NCBI GenBank assembly: GCA_037355855.1
Contig: CM074760.1
Location: 5,634,501-5,698,500 of the forward strand
DNA: 64,000 nt
DNA from: Pseudo-nitzschia pungens
Taxonomy: Eukaryota > Bacillariophyta > Bacillariophyceae > Bacillariales > Bacillariaceae
Reading direction: 5' to 3'
In this document: positions 5,119 through 24,775 of the stretch, piece after piece
Layout of the letters: each line of letters begins with the position of its first letter
Position numbering within the stretch: position 1 is the first letter of the stretch
The notes under the pieces: generated by a model
Databases searched by the model: none
The model's input: only the letters and a program-made list of their open reading frames with translations
Told to the model about the DNA's origin: nothing
Made by a program: the position numbers and the translations under genes

Positions 5119-5138
5119 TACGTCTAATAACTGATTTT
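5119..5138 (+). repeat. Left terminal inverted repeat with flanking TA
   Basis: TA followed by CGTCTAATAACTGATTTT. It pairs with 21154-21173 in inverted orientation, 17 of 18 bases plus the flanking GTA/TAC. Sequence further inside (TTTTGACCC at 5144-5153) has a loose inverted partner near 21141. Confidence 0.65.
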
Positions 5139-5334
5139 CGACCATTTTGACCCGTTTCGACCACCCCCCTCTTTTTTTTTAGATGTTTTTAGCTCCAATA
5201 TTTTTATTATTTGGAGCGAAAGCGCCTTTCTTAAGCTCGAATTATTATTTTTTGGCTCCAAAAATTAATTTTTTGCTCCAAACTCGAATATTTGGGTCGA
5301 AAAATTAAGAGCCGGGGTCGAAATTCGTTATTGA

Positions 5335-5435
5335 ACCACCATTAGGGTTAAGGGTTATAACGCTGTAGCGCTGTATCCCTGTAGCGCTGTAACGCTGTAG
5401 CGCTGTATCCCCTTTATCGCTGTAGCGCTGTAGCG
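5335..5435. repeat. Short tandem GTAGCGCTGTA repeats
   Basis: The words CGCTGTAGCGCTGTATCCC recur about six times here, and again at 5836-5885 and 6000-6035. Each contains the palindrome AGCGCT. They are part of the left subterminal repeat zone. Confidence 0.55.
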
Positions 5436-6700
5436 CAGTGCTAACTCCAAAGATACTAGGGTTGTCGCGTACGATTTGTACCAGTTGTACATACCCCGGG
5501 TATAGCATCCGCACTAATACAGTGTAGCTGAGTGCTACAAGGTTAGGGTTGCTAATGATAGTACGAAATATTAGATATGTTAACCTACCATGCTACCATG
5601 CTAAGATACTATGCTACCGCAGGGGTCGGGTCACTGGTGTACAATATGTACTATGACCGGACGCCTGACCCAGACAGTTACCCAACGCGCTAGCACACCT
5701 TTGAATCTAATTAATAAGCGGAGCTACGCTACGCTACTCCGCACACACTACGCTACCCGTAGAATACAGTACTGGAGCTACAGAGCTCTGTTATCTACGA
5801 GTTATCAGAACGATACGATACAGAGCTGAGCTGCGCTGATCCCCTGTAGCGCTGTATCCCCTGTAGCGCTGTAGCGCTGTATCGAGCTACGCTACGCTAC
5901 TCCGCACACACTACGCTACCCGTAGAATACAGTACTGGAGCTACAGAGCTCTGTTATTTTACGAGTTAGCGGAGCGCTGTCACGATACGATACAGAGCTG
6001 AGCTGAGCAGCGCTGTATCGCTGTTTCCCCTGTAGCGCTGTAGCAGCAACGCGTCGATAATACAGGGGGGGGGGCAGCAAGCAGCAAGCAGCAGCAACGC
6101 GTCGATAATACAGGGGGGGGGGGACAGCAAGCAGCAAGCAGCCGCAACGCGTCGATAATACAGGGGGGGGGGACAGCAAGCAGCAAGCAGCAGCAACGCG
6201 TCGATAATACAGGGGGGGGGACAGCAAGCAGCAAGCAGCAGCAACGCGTCGATAATACAGGGGGGGGGGGACAGCAAGGTTAGGGTTGCTAATGCTACGA
6301 AATACTGGAGATGCTAACCTACCATGATACTATTGCTAAGATACTATGCTACCGCCGGGGTCGGGTCATCATAGTACAATATGTACTATGACCGGATACC
6401 TGACCCAAACAGTTATTAAGCGAGGTAACGCTAATACGAGCTAGCGTTAGCGCAAGCGCGTGTTAAGGTTAGATACTAGGGTTGTGGCGTACGATTTGTA
6501 CCAGTTGTACATACCCCTGATATAGCATCCGTACTAATACAGTGTAGCTCAGTGCTACAAGGTTAGGGTTGCTAATGCTACGAAATAGTACTGGTTATTT
6601 TCACCTACCACGCTACCGTGCTAAGATACTATACTACCCCCGGGGGTACGGTCAGTGGTGTACAATAGGGTTAAGGTATGTACAGGAATATCAGTAGAAA
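5436..6700. repeat. Subterminal long repeats, three diverged copies
   Basis: A segment with GTACGATTTGTACCAGTTG, a GCTACAAGGTTAGGGTTGCT block and GGGGTCGGGTCA occurs at about 5440-5690, in part at 6275-6425, and again at 6465-6665. A separate 75 bp block around CTACTCCGCACACACTACG is duplicated at about 5721-5800 and 5886-5962. No coding potential is visible. This sits 0.3-1.5 kb inside the left TIR. Confidence 0.6.
6029..6276. repeat. Five-copy 50 bp minisatellite with G8-G11 runs
   Basis: The unit is CAACGCGTCGATAATACA, then a run of 8-11 G, then ACAGCAAGCAGCAAGCAG. Copies differ mainly in G-run length. The array encodes only spurious reading frames on the minus strand. Confidence 0.75.
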
Positions 6701-7028
6701 AAAATTCGATCCTATGGTACCGGTACAGCGTACGAGTACGTCATTTATTACTATTATTAATTTGGTATCTTTTACGTCATTACGACAATATGGGTGTCAA
6801 TAAGGACCCGACTCGACGACACCCACCGGTTGAGCCAATCAAAAAATTCCATTTTTCAGTACAAACTGTACCTACCATGATACCATTTCTAAGATACTAT
6901 GGTAAGGTTACCGCCGGGGTCGGGGTCATCAGGTGTCGCATGATCACAGTACAATAAAGCGTGTACAATAAAGCCAGTACATTAAAGTTAAGGGTTGTAG
7001 ACGCTCGGTCATTATTTAATATGTCCCC

Positions 7029-7604
7029 TTATCTGCACCTGGCCTTTTCTCCGGTATTTTCTCCTCTGACACATTCACACTCCACACAAATCATCGACTT
7101 AAAACGGTCCATTTGAAATGAATGAATAACGGCTCCACGTTCAATAATCAACCTCACCTCCTCAGGCAGGTAATTCTCGATACGGATCTCACGGACGATT
7201 TCTCTTCCCATGTAGCACCTGACAATGTAATTTGCATCCCGGTGATCCATAGGATTAGTAACATCCTTCTTCAACTCAAACGTGAAGGTAATCCTGTACG
7301 TCGGTACAAAATATCCTATATCATCCCTTTTGGGGTATTTGACCACAACCTCGAACCCGTCATCCCTGTACTCTACATTGCGAATAATCATACCTGTCTC
7401 CAGATCCCTGTCAATACCTTCGATCTCGCAATAATTTTTGTGATCAAAATGAATATCCAAAGTACCAAAAACTCCCTCTCCGAAATGGAAGCTGAATGGG
7501 GTGGTGCTGGTGGTTTGTGCGCTGTACCTATGAGGTCTATTTATGAATATGACCTTCATCTCATCTTGGCCTGCAGTTCCCGTTGTTGCGTCCGCGTTGG
7601 ACAT
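7029..7604 (-). CDS. Orphan cargo protein, 191 aa
   Basis: The ATG at 7604 gives MSNADATTGTAGQDEMKVIF. The protein is of ordinary composition, predicted mostly beta and mixed, with motifs such as FGTLDIHFDHKNYCEIEG and NYIVRCYMGREIVREIRIE. It ends in a short Cys/Arg tail. It is not low complexity although repeats surround it, which favours a real gene. I recognise no family. It lies inside the putative giant transposon, transcribed towards its left end. Confidence 0.45.
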   Translation of the reverse strand: MSNADATTGTAGQDEMKVIFINRPHRYSAQTTSTTPFSFHFGEGVFGTLDIHFDHKNYCEIEGIDRDLETGMIIRNVEYRDDGFEVVVKYPKRDDIGYFVPTYRITFTFELKKDVTNPMDHRDANYIVRCYMGREIVREIRIENYLPEEVRLIIERGAVIHSFQMDRFKSMICVECECVRGENTGEKARCR

Positions 7605-7611
7605 AATGGTC

Positions 7612-7820
7612 AAGTCGGGAACACCCTTTTTCAATAATCACGTTGTCTTGTTTTCGGTAACACCCTTTTCGAATAATCACCTTTTCTTGTCGTCGGGAAA
7701 ACCCAACAATCGGGAACACCCTTTTCGAATAATCACGTTGTCGTCGGGAACACCCTTTTTCAATAATCACGTTTTCCTTCACCGTATTTTTTCAATAATC
7801 ACGTTTTCCTTCACCGTATG
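7612..7820. repeat. Irregular tandem repeat, GGGAACACCCTTTT unit
   Basis: GGGAACACCCTTTTTCAATAA and close variants recur five to six times at 30-60 bp spacing, immediately upstream of the minus-strand ORF starting at 7604. Confidence 0.6.
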
Positions 7821-7984
7821 TTCTGTTGTATGTTTACAAATTTCGTTTTCTACTCATATCCCTGTACAAATTGTACACGAATCTTTGATTGGATATAATT
7901 CTACAATTGATTCAGCCAATAAAAATATTCGATTTCCCATTACAAACTGTACAGGAAAACCAGTAAGGTTTCTACGAGTACGAG

Positions 7985-8590
7985 TACCGTCGATCGATCC
8001 GTCGCTCCTTTCTGGAACAACCAAAAATCAATCGATCCGTCGGATCAATCGATCCGTCGCTCCATTTCATAACATCCGAAACTCGATTGATCCGTCGCTC
8101 CTTTCTGGAACAACCGAAAATCAATCGATCCGTCGCTCCATTTCATAACATCCGAAACTCGATTGATCCGTCGCTCCTTTCTGGAACAACCGAAAATCAA
8201 TCGATCCGTCGCTCCATTTCATAACAACCGAAACTCGATTGATCCGTCGCTCCTTTCTGGAACAACCGAAAATCAATCGATCCGTCGCTCCATTTCATAA
8301 CATCCGAAACTCGATTGATCCGTCGCTCTTTTCTGGAACAACCGAAAATCAATCGATCCCTCGCTCCATTTCATAACATCCGAAACTCGATTGATCCGTC
8401 GCTTCTTTCTGGTAACCGACCCATCGCTCCATTTCGTAACATCCAAAAATCACTCGATCGATCGATCCGTCGCTTCTTTCTGGAACAACCGAAAATCAAT
8501 CGATCCCTCGCTCCATTTCATAACATCCAAAACTTGATCGATCCGTCCGTCGCTCCATTCTGGAACATCGATCGATCCGTCGCTATTCAT
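7985..8590. repeat. 76 bp tandem repeat array with ATCCGTCGCTCC motif
   Basis: About seven copies of a 76 bp unit contain ATCAATCGATCCGTCGCTCC and CATTTCATAACATCCGAAAC, alternating with CTTTCTGGAACAACCG. The 3' end of the 8619-10550 ORF follows directly. Confidence 0.75.
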
Positions 8591-8618
8591 CATCATTCTC
8601 AGCATCCTCGTCATCATC

Positions 8619-10550
8619 TTAAGGATGAGCGTTGCCTCCAGCATTAGCATTGGCTGCAGCGATCGCAGCATTTGCTTGGTCCAAAGCATCCTGTGCATTG
8701 GCTGTCTCTTCCCGAGCTGCCAAGACCGCAGCTTGAGTTAATGTTGCCCCGTCCCGTGCCTCATTCCTCTCTTCCTGAGTGGCATTTGGATTTGCTTCCA
8801 CTGCCATCCAACGGGCCAACGCTGCTTGCCACTCTGCTTGTCTCTGAGCCTCAACTGCGGCTGCCTGTTCATGATTCACTTCTGCAGCTCGTCTTCGTCT
8901 TCTTTCTCTACCCCAGTCCAACAAGCAGAACACAAATGTTTCCGGACCGCGTCCCCCCCTTCCCATGCCATATTTGGTGTAACAATATGTGTTCTTAGTT
9001 GCAAAACCGATCTTGTTCTCTATACTGTAAACAGTCTCACCATCCTGTTTACCAAATGAGTCATAATGAATGCCGACTGGATGCTGGACAAGGGTCGTCG
9101 AATTGAGGGAAGAAAACTGATACAAAATGTCACCGATCTCCTGCCTTCTTGCCATTGCTATAGCTTTCCTGTGGTTTCTCAACTCCCGATCCACTGCAAG
9201 TGGCACCACATTCAGACCATTGACCATGTTTCCTAATTGTCTTAGCAGCAAGGCACTCACTATCTTCGCCTCAGTGAATGGTTGAAAGAATTTATAATCA
9301 GAAAACATATCCTCCGTGATAGGCCCAATCTGCCCACCAAACTGGGGGTTGCAATACGCAAAGTGAACAGCCTTCCCTTGCCTGTTTATGTAAAAAACAT
9401 GAATTGTTTGCCTGTCCGGAACAACAAATGCCCCCCGTCCGGACCTCGGTGTCACAATTGGGTTGTCGAGCATCCGGAAGAGTGCTCTAGTTGGTCCTCT
9501 GTAGACACCACTGCTGCCACCACTTCTCATCTGTTCTATGTTGTTATTTGCAGTCATGGACTCAACTTTCTTAAACAACGAGTGAACCTCTTTCTGGGTC
9601 ATCTGGAGTCGATCGCTTCCGTGATAGAATCTTGCCAACAACAGGTTGCACTTCTGCTTCCCTTCTTGTTCATTTTTGGGACCGAATGATCCAACAATAA
9701 GTGTCACATGGCATTTCTTCAACCTGTCACGACACGTGAACACTCTTGATTGTTTAATTCTTTCCATTGTGTACTCTGGCGTCTCCTTTATCTTGTTCTT
9801 GCACATCGTTCCGTGAATTATGATCAGTTGCACGATGTAAGTTCTTGTTCTGCTGGGATCCACTATATCAGAGCACTCAATTTTCTTAAATTCTGTTTTA
9901 ACCGTGTCCGTGAGCTTCTTTGCTGTTATTCCTGATTCTGCTATCTGACGTGCAAGCTCATATCCCACCACAAAGTGTTTCACTCCTGGCAGTTCAGGTT
10001 CCTCGCCCAATCCATGGCAGTCAACAATGTTTTCTGAATTGAAAGGAGTGTCAATCAGCAAGTCATACTCTGGTAGGACAAGGAACCCATCATACTTTAA
10101 TCGAACCGCGCGACTCGCAACATCAACGAAGTGCCGATGGGACCTCACCACTTGCTCCTTTTGGGCATAGTAGATACATCCATGACAAGTAGATACTACC
10201 CCAATATTGTTTTCTAGCGATTGTCTCATCTGCTGTAGCACAGAGGGCAGTGTAGTCTTCTCCTTGTCCATTCGGTTGAACAGTAGTTGCAGACATCTTC
10301 TGCAAGCAAAATTGCCACAGGACGTGCATGTTATGCCGTCATCCGTCATCGGACAGCTTGTGGTTCCTTTTGCAGTTCGTTTTCCTTTCTGTGTCAGTGT
10401 TGTGACCGAACCAAGAATACAGTGGCTTGGTTGGCACAGGGTGCTCTCGCTCAAGATTTTCTGTTGGATCCTTCTGTTGCATCTACCACCCCTTAGTTCC
10501 GCGTTGGTCTCCTCAGTGTCACCAATCTTTCGCCTGCTGGAACGTGTCAT
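8619..10550 (-). CDS. Orphan cysteine-cluster protein with coiled-coil tail, element cargo
   Basis: The first ATG of the frame is at 10550 (MTRSSRRKIGDTEETN), giving 643 residues. An N-terminal cysteine cluster reads CPMTDDGITCTSCGNFACRR, followed by CHGC about 55 residues later, which looks like a degenerate zinc-binding module of RING/PHD type. A long globular middle follows (for example VVGYELARQIAESGITAKKL and GAFVVPDRQTIHVFYINRQG). The C-terminus is a 110-residue Ala/Glu/Arg-rich helix. I cannot assign a family. The ORF is flanked on both sides by arrays sharing the ATCCGTCGCTCC word, so gene and repeats probably travel together. A DNA-binding role is possible but not shown. Confidence 0.6.
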   Translation of the reverse strand: MTRSSRRKIGDTEETNAELRGGRCNRRIQQKILSESTLCQPSHCILGSVTTLTQKGKRTAKGTTSCPMTDDGITCTSCGNFACRRCLQLLFNRMDKEKTTLPSVLQQMRQSLENNIGVVSTCHGCIYYAQKEQVVRSHRHFVDVASRAVRLKYDGFLVLPEYDLLIDTPFNSENIVDCHGLGEEPELPGVKHFVVGYELARQIAESGITAKKLTDTVKTEFKKIECSDIVDPSRTRTYIVQLIIIHGTMCKNKIKETPEYTMERIKQSRVFTCRDRLKKCHVTLIVGSFGPKNEQEGKQKCNLLLARFYHGSDRLQMTQKEVHSLFKKVESMTANNNIEQMRSGGSSGVYRGPTRALFRMLDNPIVTPRSGRGAFVVPDRQTIHVFYINRQGKAVHFAYCNPQFGGQIGPITEDMFSDYKFFQPFTEAKIVSALLLRQLGNMVNGLNVVPLAVDRELRNHRKAIAMARRQEIGDILYQFSSLNSTTLVQHPVGIHYDSFGKQDGETVYSIENKIGFATKNTYCYTKYGMGRGGRGPETFVFCLLDWGRERRRRRAAEVNHEQAAAVEAQRQAEWQAALARWMAVEANPNATQEERNEARDGATLTQAAVLAAREETANAQDALDQANAAIAAANANAGGNAHP

Positions 10551-10574
10551 TGTGGTGATCCTTTCTGCCGATTT

Positions 10575-10745
10575 CGTTCGATCCGTCGCTCCTGTACTCA
10601 ACAACCGAGAATCGTACGGGTATTACGTTCAATCCGTCGCTCCTGTACTCAACAACCGAGAATCGTACGGGTATTTCGTTCGATCCGTCGCTCCTGTACT
10701 CAACAACCGAAAATCGTAGGCGTCGCTCCTGTAATCAACAACCGA
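10575..10745. repeat. 51 bp tandem repeat, about 3.5 copies, ATCCGTCGCTCC motif
   Basis: The unit GATCCGTCGCTCCTGTACTC continues with AACAACCGAGAATCGTACGG. The array lies directly upstream of the cysteine-cluster ORF and shares ATCCGTCGCTCC and AACAACCGA with the 76 bp array at its other end, in the same orientation. Confidence 0.7.
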
Positions 10746-12301
10746 ATGAAAAAATTTTGTTGTTAGTTATGATTCTAGAGGAAACAGACAGCAGTACTCG
10801 ATAAAAGAAAAAAGAAGAAAGTATTTGTATTAAACTATGTCCAGTCATTCGTCTGTGAAGCGATCGCACCGTGCGTCGTCGTCCCTCTCAGCACCAATCG
10901 ATCGATCGTACCCGGCGTCGTTCCTGTTCGAAGCGATCGTACCCGCCGTTGTCCCTGTCCTAAGCGATCGTACCTTCCTCTTTATCGTCGCCGTGTCGCC
11001 GTCGTTCCCCTATGGAAAGACGAAAGTAAAAACAACAAACATCCTGTTAGAAGCGATCATAGCGATCGTACCCACGTCGTCACTCTCTGGAGCGATCATA
11101 CCTTCGTCGGCGTCGTCCCTCTCCACTCCAATCAGTCGTTTTTCTCTGGAAAGACGAAATAAAAAAAACAACGACAAACTGTTAGTACCCGCGTCGTCCC
11201 CGTCCGAAGCGATCGTAACCCCATCGTTCATCTCTGGAGCGATTGTACCCCCGTCGGCCCTCTCTGGAGCGATCGTACCTACGGCGTCGTCGTCCGTCTC
11301 CGCACCAATCGGTTGTGATTTTCGTCTTCGTTGTTTTCAATATCAGTACGTCGTATATCTGGGTAAGCCAGGTAGTTCCAGGACTTCCACACACCCGACC
11401 TCTGTGATATGAATCAGACAACAGAGCAGAAAGCAAGAGCGGCCGTTCTCAAGCTGTCCACAGCATGTGTGTCTTTTTCAAAAGAGATGGTCCCGGTGCC
11501 TGATGGCTAGGTTAAACTGGACCGGCCAGAATATTCCGATGCAAGATTTGAAACGAAAATGAAAAATGAAAATGAAAAATTATGACACATCCCATGAGGG
11601 AGATGTGGGGCGGAAAATTCGCCTCGCCTCGGAAAATGACGTAAGAAAAAAAGACAGAAATGTATGTACGATGCGGTACGAAGTATACATGCTGTACTGA
11701 ATATGCTGAAAAAAAATGACACGGTACATTACGGTACGCTGTACACTGTACGTATGTTACTAGTACATAATTTTTGGCGCGAAGTAGCATCATACACATC
11801 CTACTATATTGTACTAGTGTCTTCCCCACAATGAGCCAATCAAAAAATTCCTTACGAATGAACCAATCAAAAAATTTCTTACGAATGAACCAATCAAAAA
11901 TTTAGAAAATATTTTTAAGTGCAAGGAGTACGTAGTGTCGTTTGAATTTGAATTGGAAGGAGTTGCTTCCTTTACGGTTTAAAACTGATGTCAAAGTTTA
12001 AAGGCCGGGCCGTTTCACAATGGGTTTTTTTTTTGGAAATTGTTCGTTTCGAGCAAGGGCCCACGGTGGGGGGGAAACAACCCACGGTGGGGGAAATGGA
12101 AGTGCATCATCGTGACAACAAGTTACATCAATTCCGTGAACAGTTGGGGATGAGCTCAACCAGTTGAACCATTGCCGGAAAGGTTTTTAAGATGAATCAT
12201 CACAATTCAATCGGCTTGGAGATTGTCCCTCCTACAACAATCGAATCGGTCTCTATCTTTAACAATAAATCCAACAATCAGGGAATACCTGCAGATAAAT
12301 C
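10746..12301. repeat. Repeat-rich spacer with GCGATCGTACC words
   Basis: At 10855-11300 GCGATCGTACC(C) and CTCTCTGGAGCGAT recur about ten times at irregular spacing. At 11830-11905 a 27 bp unit (GAACCAATCAAAAAATTTCT) is repeated three times. The rest is AT-rich with GTACGGTAC-type words. Open frames across it simply translate the repeats. No RNA gene seen. Confidence 0.55.
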
Positions 12302-13675
12302 ATGGCAAGGCACAAAAAGAAAAAAGGCATTACATTTCCTGCGTCAGGACGCCCCACAAATAGAAGAAGATCTACCCGTTCCGCACCAGAAGAGGAAACT
12401 GAAAGCCCAACGTCCGAACCATCACCACGATCTGAAAGTGAGTCTGAGTCTTCAGCAGGTGGATGGCCTATACCTCCAAGTCTGCCATCCAAAAATCCAT
12501 TACCAGACTGGCCCATAGCTGTGCTTCAGCTCTACGAACAGGAGCAACAACATGGAGATTCTAGCAATTTGGAGGATACGACTGCCACTCCCGTCGGTTC
12601 CAACAATTCGGACCATTCCACTGCCCCAACCATGGACGACACTACCAACAGTGATGGTGCCAATAACAACAGTTCAAATAACTCGGATCGTTCCACTGCC
12701 CCAACCATGGGTGACAATTCGAACAATACTAATGGTACCAAAGGGGACTATAATGATCGCAAGTTCCGAAAGCAGCAGAGGTTGAACCGGAAAATAAATC
12801 ACAGGGCCGAATCTGTCATTGAGATGAAAGACAGTACTTCCATGAAGAAGTTTAAAATGGTGGCGGCAAACGTAAAAGTACTGCAGACACTCACCACCTT
12901 TGAGGATGAAAAAGAACACCTGGAATGTCCTGGCTCTATGCATGGTTTATTCTGCTACGACGAAGTTGTTGAGAAACCACATTTAAAACCAACTGTCACA
13001 ACCGAGAATGAGGACTACAAGAGAAAGGATGGGCCAAAACTAACATTCCTTGTTGGTCCAGGTTTTAATGCCTATCGGCGTTCCTTTGGAGAACGCTTGA
13101 TCGATGCTGGCAATTGGTTCGTAAACAATTCATTTGATCCCAACAAACCAGAAACCAAGTTAGATTGGTTCTTGGAAAATTCATTTGATCCTAACAAACC
13201 AGAAACCCACGTCGGACCTTATCACACAGAAAGTGTACGACAACATTACAGGGCAGTTTTTGGTGCTAGAGGGCGAGGTTCAGATGAGCAAGTGGAAGAA
13301 TCGGATGGAAGAATTGAGGAGGCAGATCAACTTTTGACAGAGGAACAAATCGAAACCATTATTAGTGGTGAAACTAATGGTATGACAATGCAACAAAGAT
13401 TCCACTTCCGTGGTATGGTATACACTCAGATCACAGATGACAACCCGACCGCTACTACTGTGTCACAAAGGAGTTTGGAAAAGTACATCCGAAACGTGAA
13501 ACAAGCCATCAAAGGGAAGAAGAAGAAGAAAAAAAAAGGGGGGGGGAAGAAGGGCAAGAAGAGCTCAACATCAAGCCTTCCGTTCGACCAGAGGAAAAAG
13601 CCACCACCAGGATCGGATCCAGGAAAAAAGCCACCACCAGGATCGAATCCGGGAAAGAAGCCACCACCTAAGTAA
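12302..13675 (+). CDS. Orphan basic/Ser-Asn-rich protein, element cargo
   Basis: 457 residues from ATG 12302. The N-terminus is very basic (MARHKKKKGITF) and then Ser/Glu- and Asn-rich disordered. The middle has a 10-residue direct repeat, NSFDPNKPET, twice (about residues 278-303). Near the end are a poly-Lys/Gly run and three copies of GKKPPPGSDP-type repeats before the stop. Central segments (MQQRFHFRGMVYTQITDDN) look foldable. No recognised domain. It lies between arrays in the giant element on the transposase strand, 1.4 kb upstream of the transposase. A nucleic-acid-binding accessory role is only a guess. Confidence 0.5.
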   Translation: MARHKKKKGITFPASGRPTNRRRSTRSAPEEETESPTSEPSPRSESESESSAGGWPIPPSLPSKNPLPDWPIAVLQLYEQEQQHGDSSNLEDTTATPVGSNNSDHSTAPTMDDTTNSDGANNNSSNNSDRSTAPTMGDNSNNTNGTKGDYNDRKFRKQQRLNRKINHRAESVIEMKDSTSMKKFKMVAANVKVLQTLTTFEDEKEHLECPGSMHGLFCYDEVVEKPHLKPTVTTENEDYKRKDGPKLTFLVGPGFNAYRRSFGERLIDAGNWFVNNSFDPNKPETKLDWFLENSFDPNKPETHVGPYHTESVRQHYRAVFGARGRGSDEQVEESDGRIEEADQLLTEEQIETIISGETNGMTMQQRFHFRGMVYTQITDDNPTATTVSQRSLEKYIRNVKQAIKGKKKKKKKGGGKKGKKSSTSSLPFDQRKKPPPGSDPGKKPPPGSNPGKKPPPK

Positions 13676-13794
13676 GACACAGGATGGGTATCAAAACATT
13701 GTAAAAATGGATCAAATAATTTAGGAATTAGTAGTAACAATTATGATAATATTATAATAAATCAATAAAGATGTACTCTTCCAACCCAAAAAAA

Positions 13795-14535
13795 CCATAA
13801 ACTTCTTACTACCAGGAGTTATAGTATGATGGATGTAAGGTCTGCTTTCTGAGTAAAATTCCCAGCACCAGAGTTTACACAACAGACTGTGCATATTTCC
13901 TGTGTATGGGTCAGCACACTATCACAAATTTTTTGTATTCCACACTGAATAATGGTGTGTACTATATGCATCTATTAGAAAAGTAAATAGGAATAAACTT
14001 CTTGCTACCAATTATATTATGAATGTAAGAAGTTCTGATTTGTCAGAAAAATTCTGAGGAACCGAGTTTACACCACAGAAAAGGCATATTTGCTGTGTAT
14101 GGGTCGCAGTGACTATCATTTGTTGTATTCCACACTGAATAATGGTGAGTATAAAATGAATAAACTTGCTACCAATTATATTATGGATGTAAGTTCTGCT
14201 TTCTCAGTCAAATTCCAACCACCATAGTTTACACAACAGCAGAAAGTGCATATTTCCTCTGCATGGGTCACACTGTCACAAATTTTTTGTATTCCACACT
14301 GAATAATGGTGAGTATAAAATGAATAAACTTGCTACCAATTATATTATGGATGTAAGTTCTGCTTTCTCAGTAAAATTCCAACCACCATAGTTTACACAA
14401 CAGCAGAACGTGCATATTTCCTCTGAATGGGTCACCCTGTCACAAATTTTTTGTATTCCACACTGAATAATGGTGAGTATATGCATCTATAAGAATAGTA
14501 AATAGGAATAAACTTCTTGCTACCAATTATGGTTC
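13795..14535. repeat. Tandem 165-195 bp repeats, about four copies
   Basis: Each copy contains ACTTGCTACCAATTATATTA, TTTACACAACAGCAGAA, TTTTTTGTATTCCACACTGA and AATGGTGAGTATA. The last two copies are nearly identical with 165-169 bp spacing. Non-coding. Confidence 0.7.
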
Positions 14536-14795
14536 CTTGAATGCTGGAAATATTCCAAAAAGTATTCATGAAGATGCAAAATAATACACAGATAAAGCAA
14601 GCACTAAATAAGACAAAAGAACATATGGGACGCCCACACAATAGGATCTTTTGAGTTTAATTCTTTTCATAGTCAGAAGCATACATATGGTGAGGAATAT
14701 GGTTACTTGAATGCTGGAAATATTCCAAAAAGTATTCATGAAGATGCAAAATAATACACAGATAAAGCAAGCACTAAATAAGACAAAAGATGAGA
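14525..14795. repeat. Direct duplication of a 93 bp segment
   Basis: The stretch beginning TTGAATGCTGGAAATATTCC and ending GCACTAAATAAGACAAAAGA occurs at about 14528-14621 and again at 14704-14790, essentially unchanged, with about 80 bp between. Confidence 0.7.
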
Positions 14796-15076
14796 GACAT
14801 GGGAGTGGCTTGAACTGACAGCAGCACAAGATAGCACATGCGCCTGTGTCACCACTAATTCACGATTAGCTTAAGAAAATGAAGAGTTTTTTCGTTCTTT
14901 AATTCATTTTCAATGCAAGTGCTGTACTAACGCTAAAGGATCATCTTTCCGTGACGACGATTTTGGTTCTTGCTTCCTTTCTTGAAACGACAAGGTATGG
15001 GTGAAATTAATGATAACAAGATAATGAATATTGCTGTCCTTTGAGACCCAGAAATCATTATCTTCTTGTTGACGTG

Positions 15077-18000
15077 ATGCCAAAGAAAAGAAAGTATTCC
15101 GATGGTGTTAAAATCTTGGCAGACTTCTACTGTCTGGCATGTTTTAAGAACACGAACACACTGAAAAAATTTCGTGGGTACAAAAGAGTGTCTAAAAAGG
15201 ATCAGTCATCTTTCAAATACGTTTGCAGCGGGCTTACAAGCCACTTGAGCAGATCAGGCGAATGCGGCAGATACTACTATCATAATGTAGTAGATAAAAC
15301 AGCCGCGTCCTTATACGAATTCCACCACACGGGTGGAGGTGCGGGCCGACACAACCCATCCAGTTTTTCCTTGACGATGACAGCAAATGGTCCACAGGGA
15401 GAAGCGGCATCTGATAGAATTTCGACCGGGGACCAGAATCAGGATTTAAATAGGCAAGTGGTACCAGACGTTCTGGTACCACCTATACAGCGCAATGTTA
15501 TACAGTCCTATTTAGCAGCTCCGGAGGTAGATCAAGAGGAAGATAATGAAGAGGAAGACAACGACGGAGGTACACTGATGGATGATGCAAATGAACAAAA
15601 AAGTACAGAACCGGATGCGCTCAATAACATGGAACAGATGTTCCGTTCCCACCCAATACCTGATACAACTCAGCAGCTACACGCTGAAATCAAGCTTATG
15701 AATCTAATGTCAAGGCATCGCTTACAATTAGGTACATTTCAAACCATAATGAATTGGGCAAAGGAATGTCAAAACCTCCCTGGTTTTGATTTTCGTACGG
15801 CGAAAATCAGAAAACGTGAAGTTGTTTTCCAAGAAATACAGAAGCATGTCAAAATACCCAACACAAGATTTGAACCAAAGCTAGTTACTTGGCTACCAGA
15901 CAAGAAACCTGCTCAGATTTACGTTCGCAATTTTAAAGAAGCACTGTATTCTCTTCTATCCAATAGTGAGCTGATGTGTGACCAAAATCTCTCCTTTCCA
16001 AGTATAACAACTCCGCTGCAGCCAGACAATGATCCTGCCATAACGGAAGACACATACATTTCAGAGCTTCATCATGGAACTTGGTGGAAGGACTCATGGA
16101 GGTTAATGTGCCAGCAAAACGCAGATCCTCCTGAAATTTTGGTACCACTGATTTTTTACATGGACGGGATCAGCCTGGATGCGCATGGCAGATTGTCTCT
16201 TACTCCTCTCAATATGACTCTGGGTATTTTCAGTGTAGAGACAAGAAAACGCCCAGAGGCTTGGACTACTATTTACTTCCATCCAGACAGCGAATGGGAA
16301 AACACCCATCATTCAAGGAAAGCTACGCCGACAGAAGGGGTACAGAACATTCATAATGCGATTGCCGTTGCACTAGAATCGTTGAGGGAAATTGATGCCA
16401 GAGGGGATGGAATTCTGTGGGATTACCTTCCCTATGCAGGGAAAGTGTGGAGCGTTAGAATGAAATTTGCGATTGCATATGTTGTAGGAGATACCGAACT
16501 CCATGACAAGCTTTGTGGAAAATATGGATCCCGATCGGCCAGGGTTAAAAAACTATGCAGACACTGTGATTGTGCAACAACTGAAATCAATAGGCCAGCA
16601 GCACAACAACATGTAAAACTGTGGAAACCAGACGACTTCGAAATACCAGACGGAGAAGATGCAACGGATTATTTCAAACAACAATCACACCACCGTATCG
16701 AGAACGCATTCCACAGTTTAAATTTCGGGTCCAATCTCAATAATATACACCTCGCAACACCAGGTGAAACACTACATATGCATCAATTAGGGGTAGCCAG
16801 GCGATGTGTGGAAGCAATAGAACAACAGTTGGTAAACACTACTGTTGAGTGTAAATACGCCGCGAACCTAAAGAAAGGGAGGGCGACGGTGGAAGCACTT
16901 GGATATATTGCTCAAAGATATGGTGCGCTATTATCAAGACAATCCGACAGGGATTTTCCTAGAACCAAATTTGGAACAAGCATTATGTCCATTGCGAAAA
17001 AAGAAGGAAAAGATTATAGCGGTATGCTATTGTGCATCCTTGTAGCACTGGCGTCGGAAGCTGGCCAAGAGATAGTGGGTGATCTGAGATTTGCAACTAC
17101 ACAAATTGACGTCATTGAACAAATCATATCAATGGAAGAGTTTCTCAAACATGGAAGAATTACTCCAAAAGGTCTCCGAAATCTACCAAAAACAATAATT
17201 CATTTTATTAACACAATCAATACTGCATGTATTCGGAAAGGAATGGGGACGAGACTCATCAAGAACCATCTATATTTTCACATCCCAGAGTACATAAAGT
17301 TGTGGGGACATCCACTGGGGTGGGATAGTAGCTTCAGTGAGAGTCATCACAAGACAGAGGTGAAGGCTCCAGCAAAGAACACACAACAAAACGCAGCTAC
17401 ATTGATTAGCCAAACAACAAAACGACAAACGGAAAAGTTGCTGTTGCGTACTGCCAATATGTGTTACGGGTTGGAGGAAAAGCATGAAGACCCGACAGCG
17501 AAACCCAGACCGAAGAAAGCCGGCTCACTATTCAAAATACACCGTGACGCCAAACAAAGTAAGGGAAGCATGACATGGCATAGAACTTCAAATAAGGACA
17601 AACCGTTTTTGCCATCGGTAATTCTGGATTTTGTCTGCGATTCGGTGTTGCCGTTACTAGTCGATGGCACATCGGTAGAAGCATTCACAGAACACAATCG
17701 ATGGGATTCAACAAACAAGGTCGGATATTTGTTTCGATGCCATCCCTCCTACAGATCGACATCTGGGCAAGTGAATGCCGTTTGGATGGATTGGGTAGTG
17801 GTCAGTGTTGATTCGGAAGCAATCCCGTGTCAGATTCTATGTTTTCTTGAACTAGATAACCTCAAACGTCCAACGGGTAGAGTGAATAATTACCCGGTTG
17901 AAAATGAAGGTCTTTATGCCGTCGTTAGAAAATTCAAGAAAGAGCCCACAAGGTTGAAGTCAAGATTTGTTTCCAAGGGTACTTTGGAAGAAGGTTTCTT

Positions 18001-18223
18001 TGTATTCAACACAGACGCAATTTTATCAGATATTGCTGTTGTGCCAGAGTTGAATAAAGATGGAAGTATCTCGGCTGCAAACAGGTGGCTAGTAGTGGCC
18101 AATCGTGGTGCTTGGTTGGACAGTTTTGAAGAAAGGAATGAGAGCCTGGCTTCTACATCATATGCAACACTTTACAGTCAATGTCAATTGGCAAACGACA
18201 TGGACGAAACAGAGGAAGAGTGA
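15077..18223 (+). CDS. DDE transposase of the CACTA/Plavaka (CMC) type
   Basis: 1048 residues from ATG 15077 (MPKKRKYSDGVK). A zinc-finger-like cluster C19, C22, C50, H56, C63 sits at the N-terminus, followed by an acidic linker. The catalytic-like core starts with PLIFYMDGISLD (Asp 363), which matches the IPLI..SD block of Plavaka transposases. Then come VVGDTELHD (Asp 472), the CRHCDC cluster (494-499), ETLHMHQLGVARR (His 567/569; compare the LH..DLG motif of TNP2/EnSpm) and SFSESHHKTEV (Glu 755) followed by a Gln/Asn-rich helix. These blocks keep the family order and spacing. The frame is intact. Assignment rests on motif reading; the exact subfamily is uncertain. Confidence 0.68.
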   Translation: MPKKRKYSDGVKILADFYCLACFKNTNTLKKFRGYKRVSKKDQSSFKYVCSGLTSHLSRSGECGRYYYHNVVDKTAASLYEFHHTGGGAGRHNPSSFSLTMTANGPQGEAASDRISTGDQNQDLNRQVVPDVLVPPIQRNVIQSYLAAPEVDQEEDNEEEDNDGGTLMDDANEQKSTEPDALNNMEQMFRSHPIPDTTQQLHAEIKLMNLMSRHRLQLGTFQTIMNWAKECQNLPGFDFRTAKIRKREVVFQEIQKHVKIPNTRFEPKLVTWLPDKKPAQIYVRNFKEALYSLLSNSELMCDQNLSFPSITTPLQPDNDPAITEDTYISELHHGTWWKDSWRLMCQQNADPPEILVPLIFYMDGISLDAHGRLSLTPLNMTLGIFSVETRKRPEAWTTIYFHPDSEWENTHHSRKATPTEGVQNIHNAIAVALESLREIDARGDGILWDYLPYAGKVWSVRMKFAIAYVVGDTELHDKLCGKYGSRSARVKKLCRHCDCATTEINRPAAQQHVKLWKPDDFEIPDGEDATDYFKQQSHHRIENAFHSLNFGSNLNNIHLATPGETLHMHQLGVARRCVEAIEQQLVNTTVECKYAANLKKGRATVEALGYIAQRYGALLSRQSDRDFPRTKFGTSIMSIAKKEGKDYSGMLLCILVALASEAGQEIVGDLRFATTQIDVIEQIISMEEFLKHGRITPKGLRNLPKTIIHFINTINTACIRKGMGTRLIKNHLYFHIPEYIKLWGHPLGWDSSFSESHHKTEVKAPAKNTQQNAATLISQTTKRQTEKLLLRTANMCYGLEEKHEDPTAKPRPKKAGSLFKIHRDAKQSKGSMTWHRTSNKDKPFLPSVILDFVCDSVLPLLVDGTSVEAFTEHNRWDSTNKVGYLFRCHPSYRSTSGQVNAVWMDWVVVSVDSEAIPCQILCFLELDNLKRPTGRVNNYPVENEGLYAVVRKFKKEPTRLKSRFVSKGTLEEGFFVFNTDAILSDIAVVPELNKDGSISAANRWLVVANRGAWLDSFEERNESLASTSYATLYSQCQLANDMDETEEE

Positions 18224-18674
18224 GTAAGAAATGGTAGTTACTTTTTTTTTTAATGTAAAAACTAAGATAGTCCCTACTTCGCAATTTTTTTTTTGGTAAT
18301 AGCTAAGATAGTCCCTAATTCGCAAATTCATCACGACGTGACCGCCCCAAAAAAACGTTACTATGTCAGGTACAGAAATTATAAGAGAGCAAAATTGGCG
18401 CGGGCGAGTACGCTTCCACCTTGAGAGGATGCAAAGCTAACAGAGAATATCATGTAGAGGATAAGTACGTTTTTTGGAAACAATAAAATGGCGCGGCATG
18501 ATGGCTTGCATTGATAGAGGAAGCCGTCCAGTAATTATTGGATGTGGACGTGTGGACGTGATTTTTGTTGTAATTCTTCGATCTTGATTTTTGCGGAAAG
18601 TCTTCATAATTGAGTAACACAACTGATTGAAAACAACTTTTCAGAAATTCCACTAAATTACAACATTAATCACC
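18224..18674. other. Spacer with duplicated AAGATAGTCCCTA block
   Basis: A 58 bp unit with a T-run and CTAAGATAGTCCCTA is repeated twice at 18236-18325. It separates the transposase stop from the next ORF on the same strand. No gene seen. Confidence 0.5.
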
Positions 18675-20405
18675 ATGAATAGAGAAGCATTGCAACTGAC
18701 TAAAGCTATTGCAGAAATTAGTCCAGTCTCAGCTGATGTGAACAGTCCAAGAAAGAATCGCAGTGGATTATCCCTACCCGATCCCAATGTGATAACACCA
18801 ACTGTGGCATCGGCGCGGAAGCAGCAGCAGCCGTCGACGAAGAAGCAGCATCAGCCGTCGACGAAGAAGCAGCATCAGCCGTCGAAGAAGCAGCAGCATC
18901 GGAAAACGAAGCACACAAATAAACCCCAATCCACCAAAACTTCGATAGACAATGTGACCTTCAGCACAAGAGGGAATGTGAACTTCAACGCAAACGGGAA
19001 CGTTATTGTCGCAGAGAATGCAAATATGACAGAGCCGAGGACGGTGCGGAACAGTGAATGGGACGACAGAGTCGCAGCAACAGAGAGACGATTAGCTGAA
19101 ATGGAGAAACGACTTGAAGAAAAGGAGAAACGACTTGACGAAAGGGAGAGAAAACTGGTTGAAAAAGAGACAGAAGGACAACGAACGGAAAAGGAAAAGG
19201 GCAACGTCGATAAGGAAGAAATCGAGCGGAAACTTAGGATCCATCAAGCGACGGTGTTGAGCCAAAGGGTGAATCAGTATGTAAAGCTAAATATTTTTCA
19301 GAGTCATAAATTTGTGGATAAGAAAGAGTCGATCCAAATTCTGAAAACAATGATGAAGGAGGAAAAGCTTCAACTACCGGAAGGCGTTGCCAAAAACGAA
19401 TTCTATGAATACAACTGGATGATAATCAGAAGGGCGGTAAATGACTTGAGAACTGCGGTGCAGTCTTTAGTTAGGAAGCATTGGATTGGTGAGTGCTAAT
19501 GCTACTAATGTAAAATGATGTGGGAATGATTATTATAATGAGCAAGTGGATGCCAATACTAACAAGCACACGGTTACCGATATATCGTTCCTGTTACAGA
19601 TGACTTCAAGAAGGCCAAAACAAGGAGAAACGAATGGGTCGTGCCCGAAGGATTTCCTGGCACGCTAAAGCTTATAGAGACGGAGGATGATGATGCTCCC
19701 GTCCTGCATCCGAGCTATAGGAAGAAGGAAGGAGCAGATGACTTTTATTATTTTGCGACCCGCATCTTGGCTGCATTCATACCATCGGTTTTTTCCCCAA
19801 CATGGCAAAAAACAAAATTGATTGGTGAAATATATTCCGTGAGTGATGAGGCATTTGCACTGGTTATAATTCATAACGAATATGCAAGATGGGTGAATTA
19901 CTTGGAAAGAGTTGATGACAAAAGTATTCCTGAGGTTAGCAAAAAATATTGTGACCCGAGAAGTGGAAACGAGGAGGGTTGGTCCGAAGCTGGAATAGAA
20001 ATGTATGAAAGAGTGTGTGAAGAACTGATGGATATCCGCTTCCCTGGCTACAACCTAGGGGGAAAAGAAGACAAAGACAAAGACGAGGAAGAAGACGAAG
20101 ACAAGGAAGAAGACGAAGACAAGGAAGAAGACGAAGACGAGGAAGAAGACGAAGATGAGGAAGAAGAGGAGGAAGACATCGAGGCAAGGGAAAAAGCAAA
20201 AATCGAGGCGAAAAAGCAAAAGGAAAAAGTGGTAGATTTTGAAATCGCCTTGATGAGACGAATCAACATGGCTTCGAAACGCAAAGGTGGAGGTGTGGCA
20301 TTACAATCAGATTCTGCTAGTAGCAAGACGAAGCGAAAGAAGAGGAGAAAGCATATTGATCCAATAATGAGTAGTGAGAGAAGGAAGTGGTTGGCGGAAT
20401 TGTAA
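18675..20405 (+). CDS. Spliced coiled-coil/acidic accessory protein of the element
   Basis: Two exons, 18675-19488 and 19600-20405, join across a clean 111 bp intron (GTGAGT to TTACAG) and restore one frame of 539 residues. Exon 1 has (KKQHQPST)n repeats, then a coiled coil (RLAEMEKRLEEKEKRLDER) and a foldable segment ending NDLRTAVQSLVRKHWI. Exon 2 has a globular part (FATRILAAFIPSVFSPTW, GEIYSVSDEAFALVIIHNEY) and then a long Asp/Glu/Lys run and a basic tail. It follows the transposase by 450 bp on the same strand inside the TIRs, so a role as accessory or DNA-binding factor for transposition is plausible. No known family recognised. Confidence 0.6.
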
Positions 20406-20459
20406 ATGGATGGTAATATTGAGGTTGATTAGTGATAGTTTAAATTAAAAGCAATTTGT

Positions 20460-21060
20460 GGTTGGAAACGGCGTCGCTCCATAATACCATAGGGTAGACA
20501 AAACGATCGTTCCGTCTCGAAAATTAATGGGCGTTGCCTCACAAATTGATGGGCGTTACCTCGAAAATTAATGGGCATTGCCTAGAAAATTAATGGGCGT
20601 TGCCTCATAAATTAAGGGGCGTTGCCTCGAAAATTAATGGGCATTGCCTGGAAAATTAATGGGCATTGCCTCGAAAATTCATGGGCGTTGCCTAGAAAAT
20701 TAATGGGCGTTGCCTCATAAATTGATGGGGCTTGCCTCGAAAATTAATGGGCATTGCCTAGAAAATTAATGGGCATTGCCTAGAAAATTAATGGGCATTG
20801 CCTGGAAAATTAATGGGCATTGCCTGGAAAAATTATGGGCATTGCCTGGAAAAATTATGGGCATTTCCTGGAAAATTCATGGGCGTTGCCTCGAAAATTC
20901 ATAGGCGTTGCCTCAAAAAGTAATGGGGCTTGCCTCGAAAAGTAATGGGTATTGCCTCGAAAATTTATGGGGGTTGGCTCGAAAATTTATGAGCAATGCC
21001 TCGAAAATTTATGGGCGTAGCCTCTAAAAATAATTGGCATAGGCTGTAAAATATATATGG
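20460..21060. repeat. 22 bp minisatellite, about 25 copies
   Basis: The unit is GGGCGTTGCCTCGAAAATTA plus AT, with CGTT/CATT and CTCG/CTAG/CTGG variants. It decays into diverged units towards 21060 and ends about 100 bp before the right TIR. Confidence 0.8.
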
Positions 21061-21153
21061 TACGGGACTGAAAAAATGAAGCCGGGGGACAATCCTTTGG
21101 TCAAAATATTTGACCCCAAAAGGACCCGGCACGAAAATTTTTGACCCACGTCT

Positions 21154-21173
21154 AAAATCAGTTATCAGACGTA
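21154..21173 (-). repeat. Right terminal inverted repeat with flanking TA
   Basis: AAAATCAGTTATCAGACG followed by TA. It is the inverted partner of 5121-5138. The host flank to its right resumes with ACTACTACTAGTA tracts like those left of 5119. Confidence 0.65.
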
Positions 21174-22478: not shown

Positions 22479-23081
22479 ATGTTTCTCTCTGCTCTTCCGA
22501 ACAAGGCAGCAACATACCTCCTCCTCGCCCTCGCCTCGTTGGCATTGGGCGCGACCGGGCAGAGATTTCCTCCCCTGGGCCTCACGACCGTGGGACTGGG
22601 AGGCCAATTGGCGGGCACGACCCTGGAATACGTTGTGAATCGGGCCGATTTCCGCGCGGGAGGACAGGACACCATCACGATGATCTATACGATCCCCCAA
22701 TCGTCCTGGGTAGCCATCGGCTTTAGCAGCAACGGGAAGATGATGGGTGCCGATGCGGTGATTGGTTTTCCCAACACCGGAGAGGTCTTGAAATACAGCA
22801 TGTCCTCCTACGACATGTCGGGAGTCCTTCCCATGCCGCCGGCGAAGCAGACACTCATCGGTACTTTGATCGTCCAGGAGAACGGAAGCACGACCATGCG
22901 ATTCACAAAGATCATGGACGAAGAGGGTGAGCAGACGATCGTGCCTGGTGCCAACATCTTGCTGGCAGCCATGGGCAGTGGGAATCAGTTCTTTTATCAC
23001 GCCAAGCGGGAGGCCTTTGGCATCATGCTGGAAGCTCCCCCGCTACCGGAACCCGAGCCAGAGCCAGAGCCCGAGCCAGAG

Positions 23082-23142
<61 letters not shown>

Positions 23143-24554
23143 TGGAACCAGGGCAGAGCTTTCCTCCCCTGAGCCTCACGACCTTAGGACTGGGAGGCCA
23201 ATTGGCCGGGACCACTCTGGAGTACGTCGTGAATCGGGCCGATTTCCGCGCGGGAGGACAGGACACCATCACGATGATCTACACAATCCCCCAATTGTCC
23301 TGGGTAGGCATCGGCTTTAGCAGCAATGGGAAGATGATTGGTGCCGATGCGGTGATTGGTTTTCCCAACACCGGGGAGGTCTTGAAATACAGCATGTCCT
23401 CCTACGACATGTCGGGAGTCCTTCCCATGCCGCCGGTGAAGCAGACACTCATCGGTACCTCGATCGTCCAGGAGAACGGAAGCACGACCATGCAATTCAC
23501 AAAGATCATGGAGGAAGAGGGCGAGCAGACGATTGTGCTCGGTTCCAACATCTTGCTCGCAGCCATGGGCAGTGGGAACCAGTTCTTTTATCACGCCAAG
23601 CGAGAGGCCTTTGGCATTATGCTGGAAGCTCCCCTGCTGCCGGAACCAGAACCGGAATTCGAAGAAGTTGCTACGGAAGAGGACGCCGACAAGTCCGACA
23701 CCGAATCGCAAACCGATTCCGAATCCGAGGTTGTATCCACGGACAAGGACGTCGAAGAACCCGAACCCGAGCCCGAGCCCGAGCCCGAGCCAGCTGAAAC
23801 CACCCAATCCAACGGAGCCACCGCGACCGCCGTGACCTTTGTCATCGAGACGCGCAACCGAAGCCTGTGGAAGGCGCACGGCGTGTGCGCCACCTTTGCC
23901 TGGGGAGTCTTTGCGCCCCTGGCCATTGCGGTCGCCGTCCTCCGGTTCTGGCTGGAGGACTTTGGGGGCTTGTGGCTGAAACTCCACTACGGATTGAACC
24001 TTGCCACGGGCTTTTTTACGATGCTCGCCTTTTTCCTGGGGGTGGCCGCCATCAACTCGGAGAACACCGGGATTCCCCACACCCATTTTGCGTCCAGCCC
24101 GCACGCGCACCGGTTCGTCGGCCTGATGGTCTTTTTGCTGGCGGCCTTTCAGGTGGTGAGCGGGGTGTTTCGGCCCCACAACCCCGAAAAGGGCGTGGAA
24201 AAATCCCTTACCCGCCGCGGGTGGGAAATCTTGCACCGGATGCTGGGTCTCACGCTCCTGTTTCTGGGCTGGTACCAGATCCATTCCGGGATCGCCATCT
24301 ACCAGACGATCTTTGCCGACAGCGCGGATGCCAATCTGAAGGGCGCTTTCTGGGGGATCATGGGCACCTTTTTGTGCCTCGTTGTGGCGGTGTACGTTTG
24401 CACAAAAGTCCTGATCGACGACGAGGACGAGGACAAGGACGAGGACGAATACTCCACCGATGAAAAACGACTGGAGGAAGGAGAGATAGACGAGGATATC
24501 AACGACGATAACGATGGCAGCAGCTCTCCGGAGAAGGAGGAGTTGGAGAGATAA
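22479..24554 (+). CDS. Double-DOMON cytochrome b561 membrane protein
   Basis: ATG 22479 opens a signal peptide ([18 protein letters not shown]). Two nearly identical DOMON domains follow, about residues 30-190 and 225-385. Each has [17 protein letters not shown] and contains [10 protein letters not shown]; they are joined by a (PE)n linker. After an acidic linker comes a cytochrome b561 domain (about residues 450-640) with helices and candidate haem histidines in [31 protein letters not shown] and ILHRMLGLT, then an acidic cytosolic tail. DOMON-b561 proteins move electrons across membranes; ferric-reductase or ascorbate-linked activity is a family inference. The domains are copies at DNA level with 594 bp offset, so the duplication is recent or homogenised. 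Confidence 0.85.
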
Positions 24555-24639: not shown

Positions 24640-24775
24640 CGACGACGAGCATTGTTATTATTATTAATATTATTACTATAGCAATCCATTCAACTCATGT
24701 TTTTGTTGTTACATTGTTATTATTATTAATATTATTACTATAGCAATCCATTCAACTCATGTTTCTGTTGTTACA
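24640..24775. repeat. Tandem duplication of 61-62 bp in 3' flank
   Basis: TTGTTATTATTATTAATATT through CAACTCATGTTT is present twice in a row. It sits between the convergent DOMON and SR-rich genes. Confidence 0.7.

Follow-up and report, generated by a model that had tools for sequence, protein, structure and literature searches.

A giant, probably autonomous transposon of the diatom Pseudo-nitzschia pungens and a gene cassette apparently exchanged between transposon families

The DNA analyzed here is a 64-kb stretch of the Pseudo-nitzschia pungens genome, referred to as the window (contig C3:5634501-5698500; the genome searched comprised 66.9 Mb in 28 contigs). It contains a 16-kb element, bounded by terminal inverted repeats (TIRs), that carries a transposase gene and four others, including a spliced one. 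An earlier note, made from the sequence alone, had claimed this gene content, lying between inverted 18-mer ends 16 kb apart with one mismatch and a TA beside each; genes, coordinates, and TA flanks were all confirmed. The element and its close relatives are referred to as family A, and a second family with a related transposase as family B. The features of the element are as follows, in window positions:

5119..5120: left copy of the target-site duplication, TA
5121..21171, forward strand: whole transposon of family A, 16,051 bp, with a TIR pair and a 2-bp duplication; 10 further copies aligned with both ends
5121..5138, forward strand: left TIR, 18-mer CGTCTAATAACTGATTTT, A at TIR position 6
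5358..6278: left subterminal tandem repeats, with 8/33-bp and 48-bp units; a region common to other A copies and three nonautonomous ones
7029..7604, reverse strand: accessory gene of 191 amino acids (aa), in 11 of 11 A elements read
7614..7819: 39/32-bp minisatellite, left edge of the cassette slot
7990..8584: 76-bp minisatellite, where homology to element B2 begins
8587..14530: exchangeable cassette comprising a 643-aa and a 457-aa gene, with two long matches to B2 at 95% and 86% DNA identity
8619..10550, reverse strand: 643-aa cassette gene, with a Cys-rich N-terminal part
12302..13675, forward strand: 457-aa cassette gene
14001..14481: 164-bp tandem array, right edge of the slot, also in B1 and B2
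15077..18223, forward strand: Plavaka-related transposase, 1048 aa (D363, D472, C494/C497, H731/H735, E755)
18675..19488, forward strand: spliced accessory gene, exon 1
19489..19599, forward strand: intron, GTGAGT..CAG
19600..20405, forward strand: second exon of the spliced accessory gene, an open frame from 19602 to its stop codon
20516..21040: right subterminal array of a 22-bp unit repeated about 24 times, common to the nonautonomous copies
21154..21171, reverse strand: right TIR, 18-mer CGTCTGATAACTGATTTT, G at TIR position 6
21172..21173: right copy of the target-site duplication, TA

The two 18-mer ends differ at one base and are both flanked by TA, and no other match with up to three mismatches exists in the window (0.04 expected by chance). 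With up to two mismatches, the whole genome holds 278 such places (145+133), and the reversed control gave none. Pairing was analyzed on the 100 places listed of these 278, of which 72 form 36 pairs of inward-facing neighbors less than 30 kb apart (5,783 to 26,815 bp), versus two outward and three same-strand pairs. Since 35 of the 36 listed pairs have one end with A and one with G at TIR position 6, left and right ends can be told apart. The proposal of a single 16-kb element stands insofar as this is one TIR-bounded transposon, but it is not a lone one, as it belongs to a large family. The worry that the 18-mer might be a common dispersed word does not apply either: it does occur dispersed, but in the form of TIR pairs flanked by duplications.

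Flanks were read for 31 pairs (the window element, 10 further transposase-bearing elements, and 20 further pairs), a nonrandom sample taken from the exact-match list and selected by the CGTC end. An exact 2-bp duplication was found in 30 of them (TA in 16, TG in 4, CA in 4, and six others once each), while 28% of mispaired flank combinations, used as a control, agreed at 2 bp. No pair agreed at 3 or 4 bp, nor at 7 or 8 bp. The TA target inferred earlier thus holds for the window copy but not as a specificity, since 14 of the 30 duplications differ from TA. The termini are CGTC..GACG in the 31 A pairs (selected by that end) and also in B1 and B2, the two B elements that were read whole.

In search of empty sites, flanks were joined across the insertion and compared with every locus retrieved from the genome. 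Uninterrupted, gap-free counterparts of the insertion site were found for three other A-family elements, L013 (290 bp at 97.2%, with the counterpart inside the spliced gene of B1), L049 (298 bp at 92.3% identity), and L047 (238 bp at 89.5% identity); among the loci compared, the window copy had no such counterpart. These empty sites are paralogous copies and not alleles. A further L013 match, in B2, has nine gap positions. Two more insertions fit a 2-bp duplication, although in repetitive surroundings: L027 is inserted in a tandem repeat, and L041 sits among repeats resembling the left subterminal ones of family A.

At least 44 genome matches to the transposase were scored from 242 candidates, 18 of them at 91-100% identity, one at 69%, and 25 at 56-57%. 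Among the 18 close copies, 15 cover all 1048 residues (one of these is interrupted by a stop), one starts after residue 40, and two end near residue 857. A second worry, that other copies of the transposase would have different ends, was not borne out, as both exact ends were found at 13 of the 18 close copies and one end at 4 (listed places); the 18th copy sits on a contig beyond the 18-mer places listed. The 13 elements read whole (11 from family A, B1, and B2) span 10-17 kb. In addition, three nonautonomous copies of 6.2-7.8 kb (L079, L080, and L081) keep both ends and the subterminal arrays without an intact transposase, and L080 retains the spliced gene. One A element (C1:5058744-5076116) lies in repeats like the A subterminal ones and itself holds a pair of B ends (C1:5063230-5069070), an apparent case of nested transposition.

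The transposase, the 191-aa gene, and both exons of the spliced gene have counterparts in all 11 A elements, and the three genes are open in the window copy. Broken transposases were found in L023 and L025 (split) and L027 (shortened), and shortened accessory genes in L025 (191-aa gene) and L019 (exon 1). The intron donor is present in 10 of the 11 elements (not in L019), and 9 of those 10 (all but L015) also show the acceptor, TTACAG and then ATGACTTC. The median ratio of nonsynonymous to synonymous divergence (dN/dS) among A copies is 0.21 for the transposase (49/55 pairs used), 0.44 for the 191-aa gene (53/55 pairs), 0.40 for exon 1 (49/55 pairs), and 0.27 for exon 2 (15/15 pairs; frames from six elements). 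A 401-aa gene found in other A elements gave 0.46 (14/15 pairs; six elements), and the 643-aa gene 0.23 (1/3 A pairs) and 0.29 versus B2. In individual pairs, the ratio rises to 0.84-1.00 (191-aa gene, exon 1, and 401-aa gene).

Residues 251-450 of the transposase match the Pfam family Plavaka (PF18759; E value of 9.8e-8, 32.0 bits, cutoff 26.3). The full-length L019 transposase also matches it over the cutoff (1.2e-7, 31.7 bits), and those of B1 and B2 score just under it (25.1 and 24.9 bits). A search of the genome with the PF18759 profile found 61 places, 56 over the cutoff (best E value of 3.9e-7), many of which fall inside the listed transposases; one control genome matched, below the cutoff. 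The residues D363, D472, C494-x2-C497, H731-x3-H735, and E755 are invariant between families A and B. The CMCT clade is defined by D, D, and E, where C(2)C and H(3-4)H separate the second D from the E (Kojima 2025, PMC12730594), and the pattern found here would fit that clade, although the second D and the E are putative assignments made by reading motifs. The 2-bp duplication falls within the 2-5-bp range given for the clade, and CGTC..GACG departs from its mostly CA..TG termini (PMC12730594). The CAC..GTG ends and 3-bp duplication of EnSpm/CACTA proper are not found here. PF02992 (Transposase_21) is silent in the genome, but also in the control genomes. No match to the transposase was found among PDB sequences, an AlphaFold2 model of residues 301-800 made without an alignment was uninformative (predicted local distance difference test [pLDDT] of 34.5), and a search of viral contigs gave no confirmed relatives of the transposase, the 401-aa protein, or the 643-aa protein.

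Family B was read whole in one element per cassette type, B1 (C7:3836593-3851271, 14,679 bp, TG duplication) and B2 (C4:6161446-6178011, 16,566 bp, GG duplication). Both have perfect 24-bp TIRs starting CGTCCGAAAACTG, and the B1 ends were located without using CGTC. A 23-base word taken from the start of the B1 end matches 223+223 genome places with up to two mismatches (control, 0). B2 (L078) also contains a 510-aa open reading frame (ORF; C4:6173724-6175256, reverse strand) that by eye resembles the RNase H part of a retrotransposon and is probably a nested insertion.

A slot with minisatellites at its edges lies between the 191-aa gene and the transposase and is occupied by either the 643-aa and 457-aa pair or the 401-aa gene. 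In a census covering 46 of 63 rows of 643-aa matches and 20 of 28 rows of 401-aa matches, 13 of the 18 close A transposases have a 401-aa match within 12 kb, four have the 643-aa gene (always accompanied by the 457-aa gene), and none has both; the last, L027, has a 643-aa remnant alone, and the 401-aa gene is broken in L023. The middle two genes thus form a variable cassette in the A copies rather than a permanent component. The 643-aa gene beside the 25 B transposases is A-like in nine cases (93-96%; one copy is in pieces), divergent in 13 (52-59%), and absent in three; the copy at 69% identity also neighbors a divergent 643-aa gene. No listed transposase lies near 18 of the 46 643-aa rows and 7 of the 20 401-aa rows. 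A second group of 401-aa gene matches, at 62-63% identity, has no listed transposase within 12 kb (C10:2866936, C6:4841687, C1:3242788, and C11:1827868).

The window element and B2 are 95.3% identical in the 643-aa protein and 88.6% in the 457-aa protein, versus 56.4% in the transposase and 26.0% in exon 1. The reverse holds between B1 and B2, with 59.9% and 28.5% for the cassette proteins and 96.0% and 94.8% for the transposase and exon 1. The synonymous divergence (dS) between window and B2 is 0.075 for the 643-aa gene and 0.093 for the 457-aa gene, with the transposase saturated, a combination that shared descent does not readily give; between B1 and B2 the cassette dS is 1.4-1.8. Apart from the transposase, window and B2 are homologous at the DNA level from the 76-bp minisatellite to 14530, past the 164-bp array, and roughly this interval is also where A elements bearing the 401-aa gene differ from the window element. 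Considering that the same gene pair sits in a family whose transposase is just 56% identical, the sequences indicate a transfer of the cassette between families A and B, in one direction or the other.

Taken as a whole, these data are best explained by an intact, probably autonomous giant diatom transposon of the cut-and-paste type, with a slot whose cassette has been exchanged between families, a reading to which we give a probability of about 86%. A DDE-type transposase would bind the TIRs and the subterminal arrays, perhaps assisted by the spliced accessory protein in a role like that of TnpA, excise the element, and join it to the target with a 2-bp stagger. Cassettes would be transferred by recombination or gene conversion between arrays common to nested or neighboring copies, and the cassette proteins might shield the element from silencing, the 401-aa protein possibly as an Fe(II)/2-oxoglutarate dioxygenase.

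Several observations weigh against this reading. L019 is the sole pair of the 31 without a 2-bp duplication, 5-bp agreement of the flanks also occurs in 2 of 31 pairs, and 2-mers shifted outward by three bases agree in 10 of 31, as the flanks are rich in repeats. The empty site of L013 has AC where the filled site has an AT duplication. The full-length window transposase matched neither Plavaka nor any other transposase family in Pfam, which we take for a filter effect because the 200-aa piece does match Plavaka. That match covers profile positions of about 40-203 of 325, around the first D, to which profile support in the putative catalytic region is confined, and the pieces around the second D and the E matched no Pfam family. 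The CGTC..GACG termini are not those of Plavaka, which are TGT..ACA (A) or CATCA..TGATG (B) (PMC12730594). The 457-aa gene is weakly constrained (dN/dS of 0.34 and 0.54 in 2/3 A pairs, and 0.67 versus B2). Activity of the transposon is predicted from its sequence, and the assisting and shielding roles are hypothetical.

It is improbable, but worth weighing, that the 643-aa and 457-aa cassette is a smaller mobile element, nested in and separately inserted into the A and B transposons. Its presence in both families, its absence from most A copies, and the 643-aa rows without a listed transposase nearby, which could be free-standing cassettes, would all be accounted for, but the edges of homology fall within tandem arrays that are present in other elements too, the cassette shares one slot in family A with the 401-aa gene, and no terminal repeats were noticed at its edges (no dedicated search was run). 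We consider very unlikely an explanation by descent only, with an ancestral cassette lost or replaced at various times and no exchange between A and B. The B1 cassette genes, 57.5% and 32.6% identical to those of the window, do resemble ancient relatives within family B, but the low dS of the pair between window and B2 stands against the saturated transposase, and the extreme synonymous conservation that descent would demand has no apparent reason, the more so as the B1 and B2 cassettes differ as much as they do. Finally, a TA-targeting Tc1/mariner-like or KDZ giant element has next to no probability in spite of the TA flanks of the window copy and the giant size of KDZ elements described in brown and green algae, and was rejected on duplication length and target sequence, since nearly half of the duplications are not TA, Kyakuja and Zisupton are described with duplications of 7 or 8 bp, a length at which no pair agrees, and neither the transposase nor its pieces matched a profile of KDZ or Tc1, while Plavaka did match.

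Returning to the transposon with an exchangeable slot, some features of the cassette proteins bear on what they might do. In the 643-aa protein, cysteines 66, 75, 78, 83, 86, 122, and 125 are conserved between A and B1, all RING matches are below threshold, and an AlphaFold2 model made without an alignment (mean pLDDT of 39.4) is confident only in a C-terminal helical stretch. Two stretches of the 401-aa protein, CHTDRD and GEALLFNSTILHS, are read here as the putative core of an Fe(II)/2-oxoglutarate dioxygenase. H321-x-D323 and H373 (after GEALLF), which would form the HxD..H metal site expected within the double-stranded beta-helix of such enzymes, are invariant in five copies, which is weak evidence because these copies are 94-96% alike. 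The 401-aa gene perhaps encodes such an enzyme, although, as a further point on the opposite side, searches of Pfam, PHROGs, and PDB gave no dioxygenase match; its two PDB matches were taken as chance. Given that fungal transposons of several lineages carry and pass on TET/JBP dioxygenases (PMC12730594), an anti-silencing role of the cassette proteins would be plausible by analogy. It is also possible, although we hold it doubtful, that these elements form a giant diatom transposon lineage with a dedicated slot, in which minisatellites serve as docks for swapping modules and a nucleic-acid dioxygenase counters silencing.

The surroundings agree with the earlier view that the unusual content lies inside the element and host genes outside. 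The transposase, the accessory ORFs, and large minisatellites fall within it, and a recognizable host gene for a DOMON protein lies outside, at 22479-24554 of the window. Just downstream of this gene there is a 62-bp tandem duplication (98% matches) at 24650-24775. Elsewhere in the genome, silicon transporters (PF03842) gave 11 matches over the cutoff (best E value of 4.1e-232; among controls, 1 of 14 matched, below the cutoff), which mark the host as a silicifier and agree with a diatom, and a 1696-aa open frame at C3:7803825-7808126 contains four successive matches, apparently a fused multidomain transporter.

Giant size and multiple ORFs are not new, since such CMCT elements have been described in both red and brown algae. 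Chondrus crispus has giant EnSpm/CACTA elements that are 16-20 kb long and carry 4-5 ORFs (Arkhipova and Yushenova 2019, PMC6431247); they resemble ours, compared by description alone, in size, several ORFs, broad clade, and algal host, while EnSpm elements of fungi differ in their CAC..GTG ends and 3-bp duplications (Kojima 2025, PMC12730594). Ectocarpus has giant EnSpm (up to 15.2 kb), KDZ, and Sola-1 elements with additional transcribed genes (PMC12477816); again by description alone, they share size, accessory genes, and a stramenopile host, but cassette exchange is not mentioned in the parts of that source available to us. Plavaka, a member of the CMCT clade from fungi with duplications of 2 or 3 bp, is similar in the PF18759 match, in the 2-bp duplication of PlavakaA, and in carrying extra genes that pass between transposon lineages (PMC12730594), and differs from the diatom elements, which are 10-17 kb long in the 13 read whole and have other ends, accessory genes, and a swappable slot. 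The fungal TET/JBP transposons likewise have cargo common to different transposon lineages, and possibly dioxygenase cargo in both cases (PMC12730594); here the cargo is a two-gene cassette with edges in shared minisatellites, and the 401-aa protein is a candidate dioxygenase for which TET/JBP membership is not claimed. A limited literature search found nothing on giant diatom transposons with TIRs or on a diatom transposase superfamily, for Plavaka in diatoms it listed papers that by title concern a green alga and a mushroom, and it showed neither CGTC..GACG ends nor an exchangeable slot in the sources consulted. It is these ends and the swappable slot that make the element new relative to the known giant CMCT elements.

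The CGTC ends with a 2-bp duplication widen the terminal features reported for Plavaka-type transposases. How giant eukaryotic transposons acquire and share cargo is poorly understood. Here, a single genome holds an accessory gene pair of low divergence next to saturated transposases, with edges in shared arrays, so that array-mediated exchange becomes directly testable. If true, a slot with minisatellite docks would be a eukaryotic counterpart of the modular exchange of phages and integrative elements.

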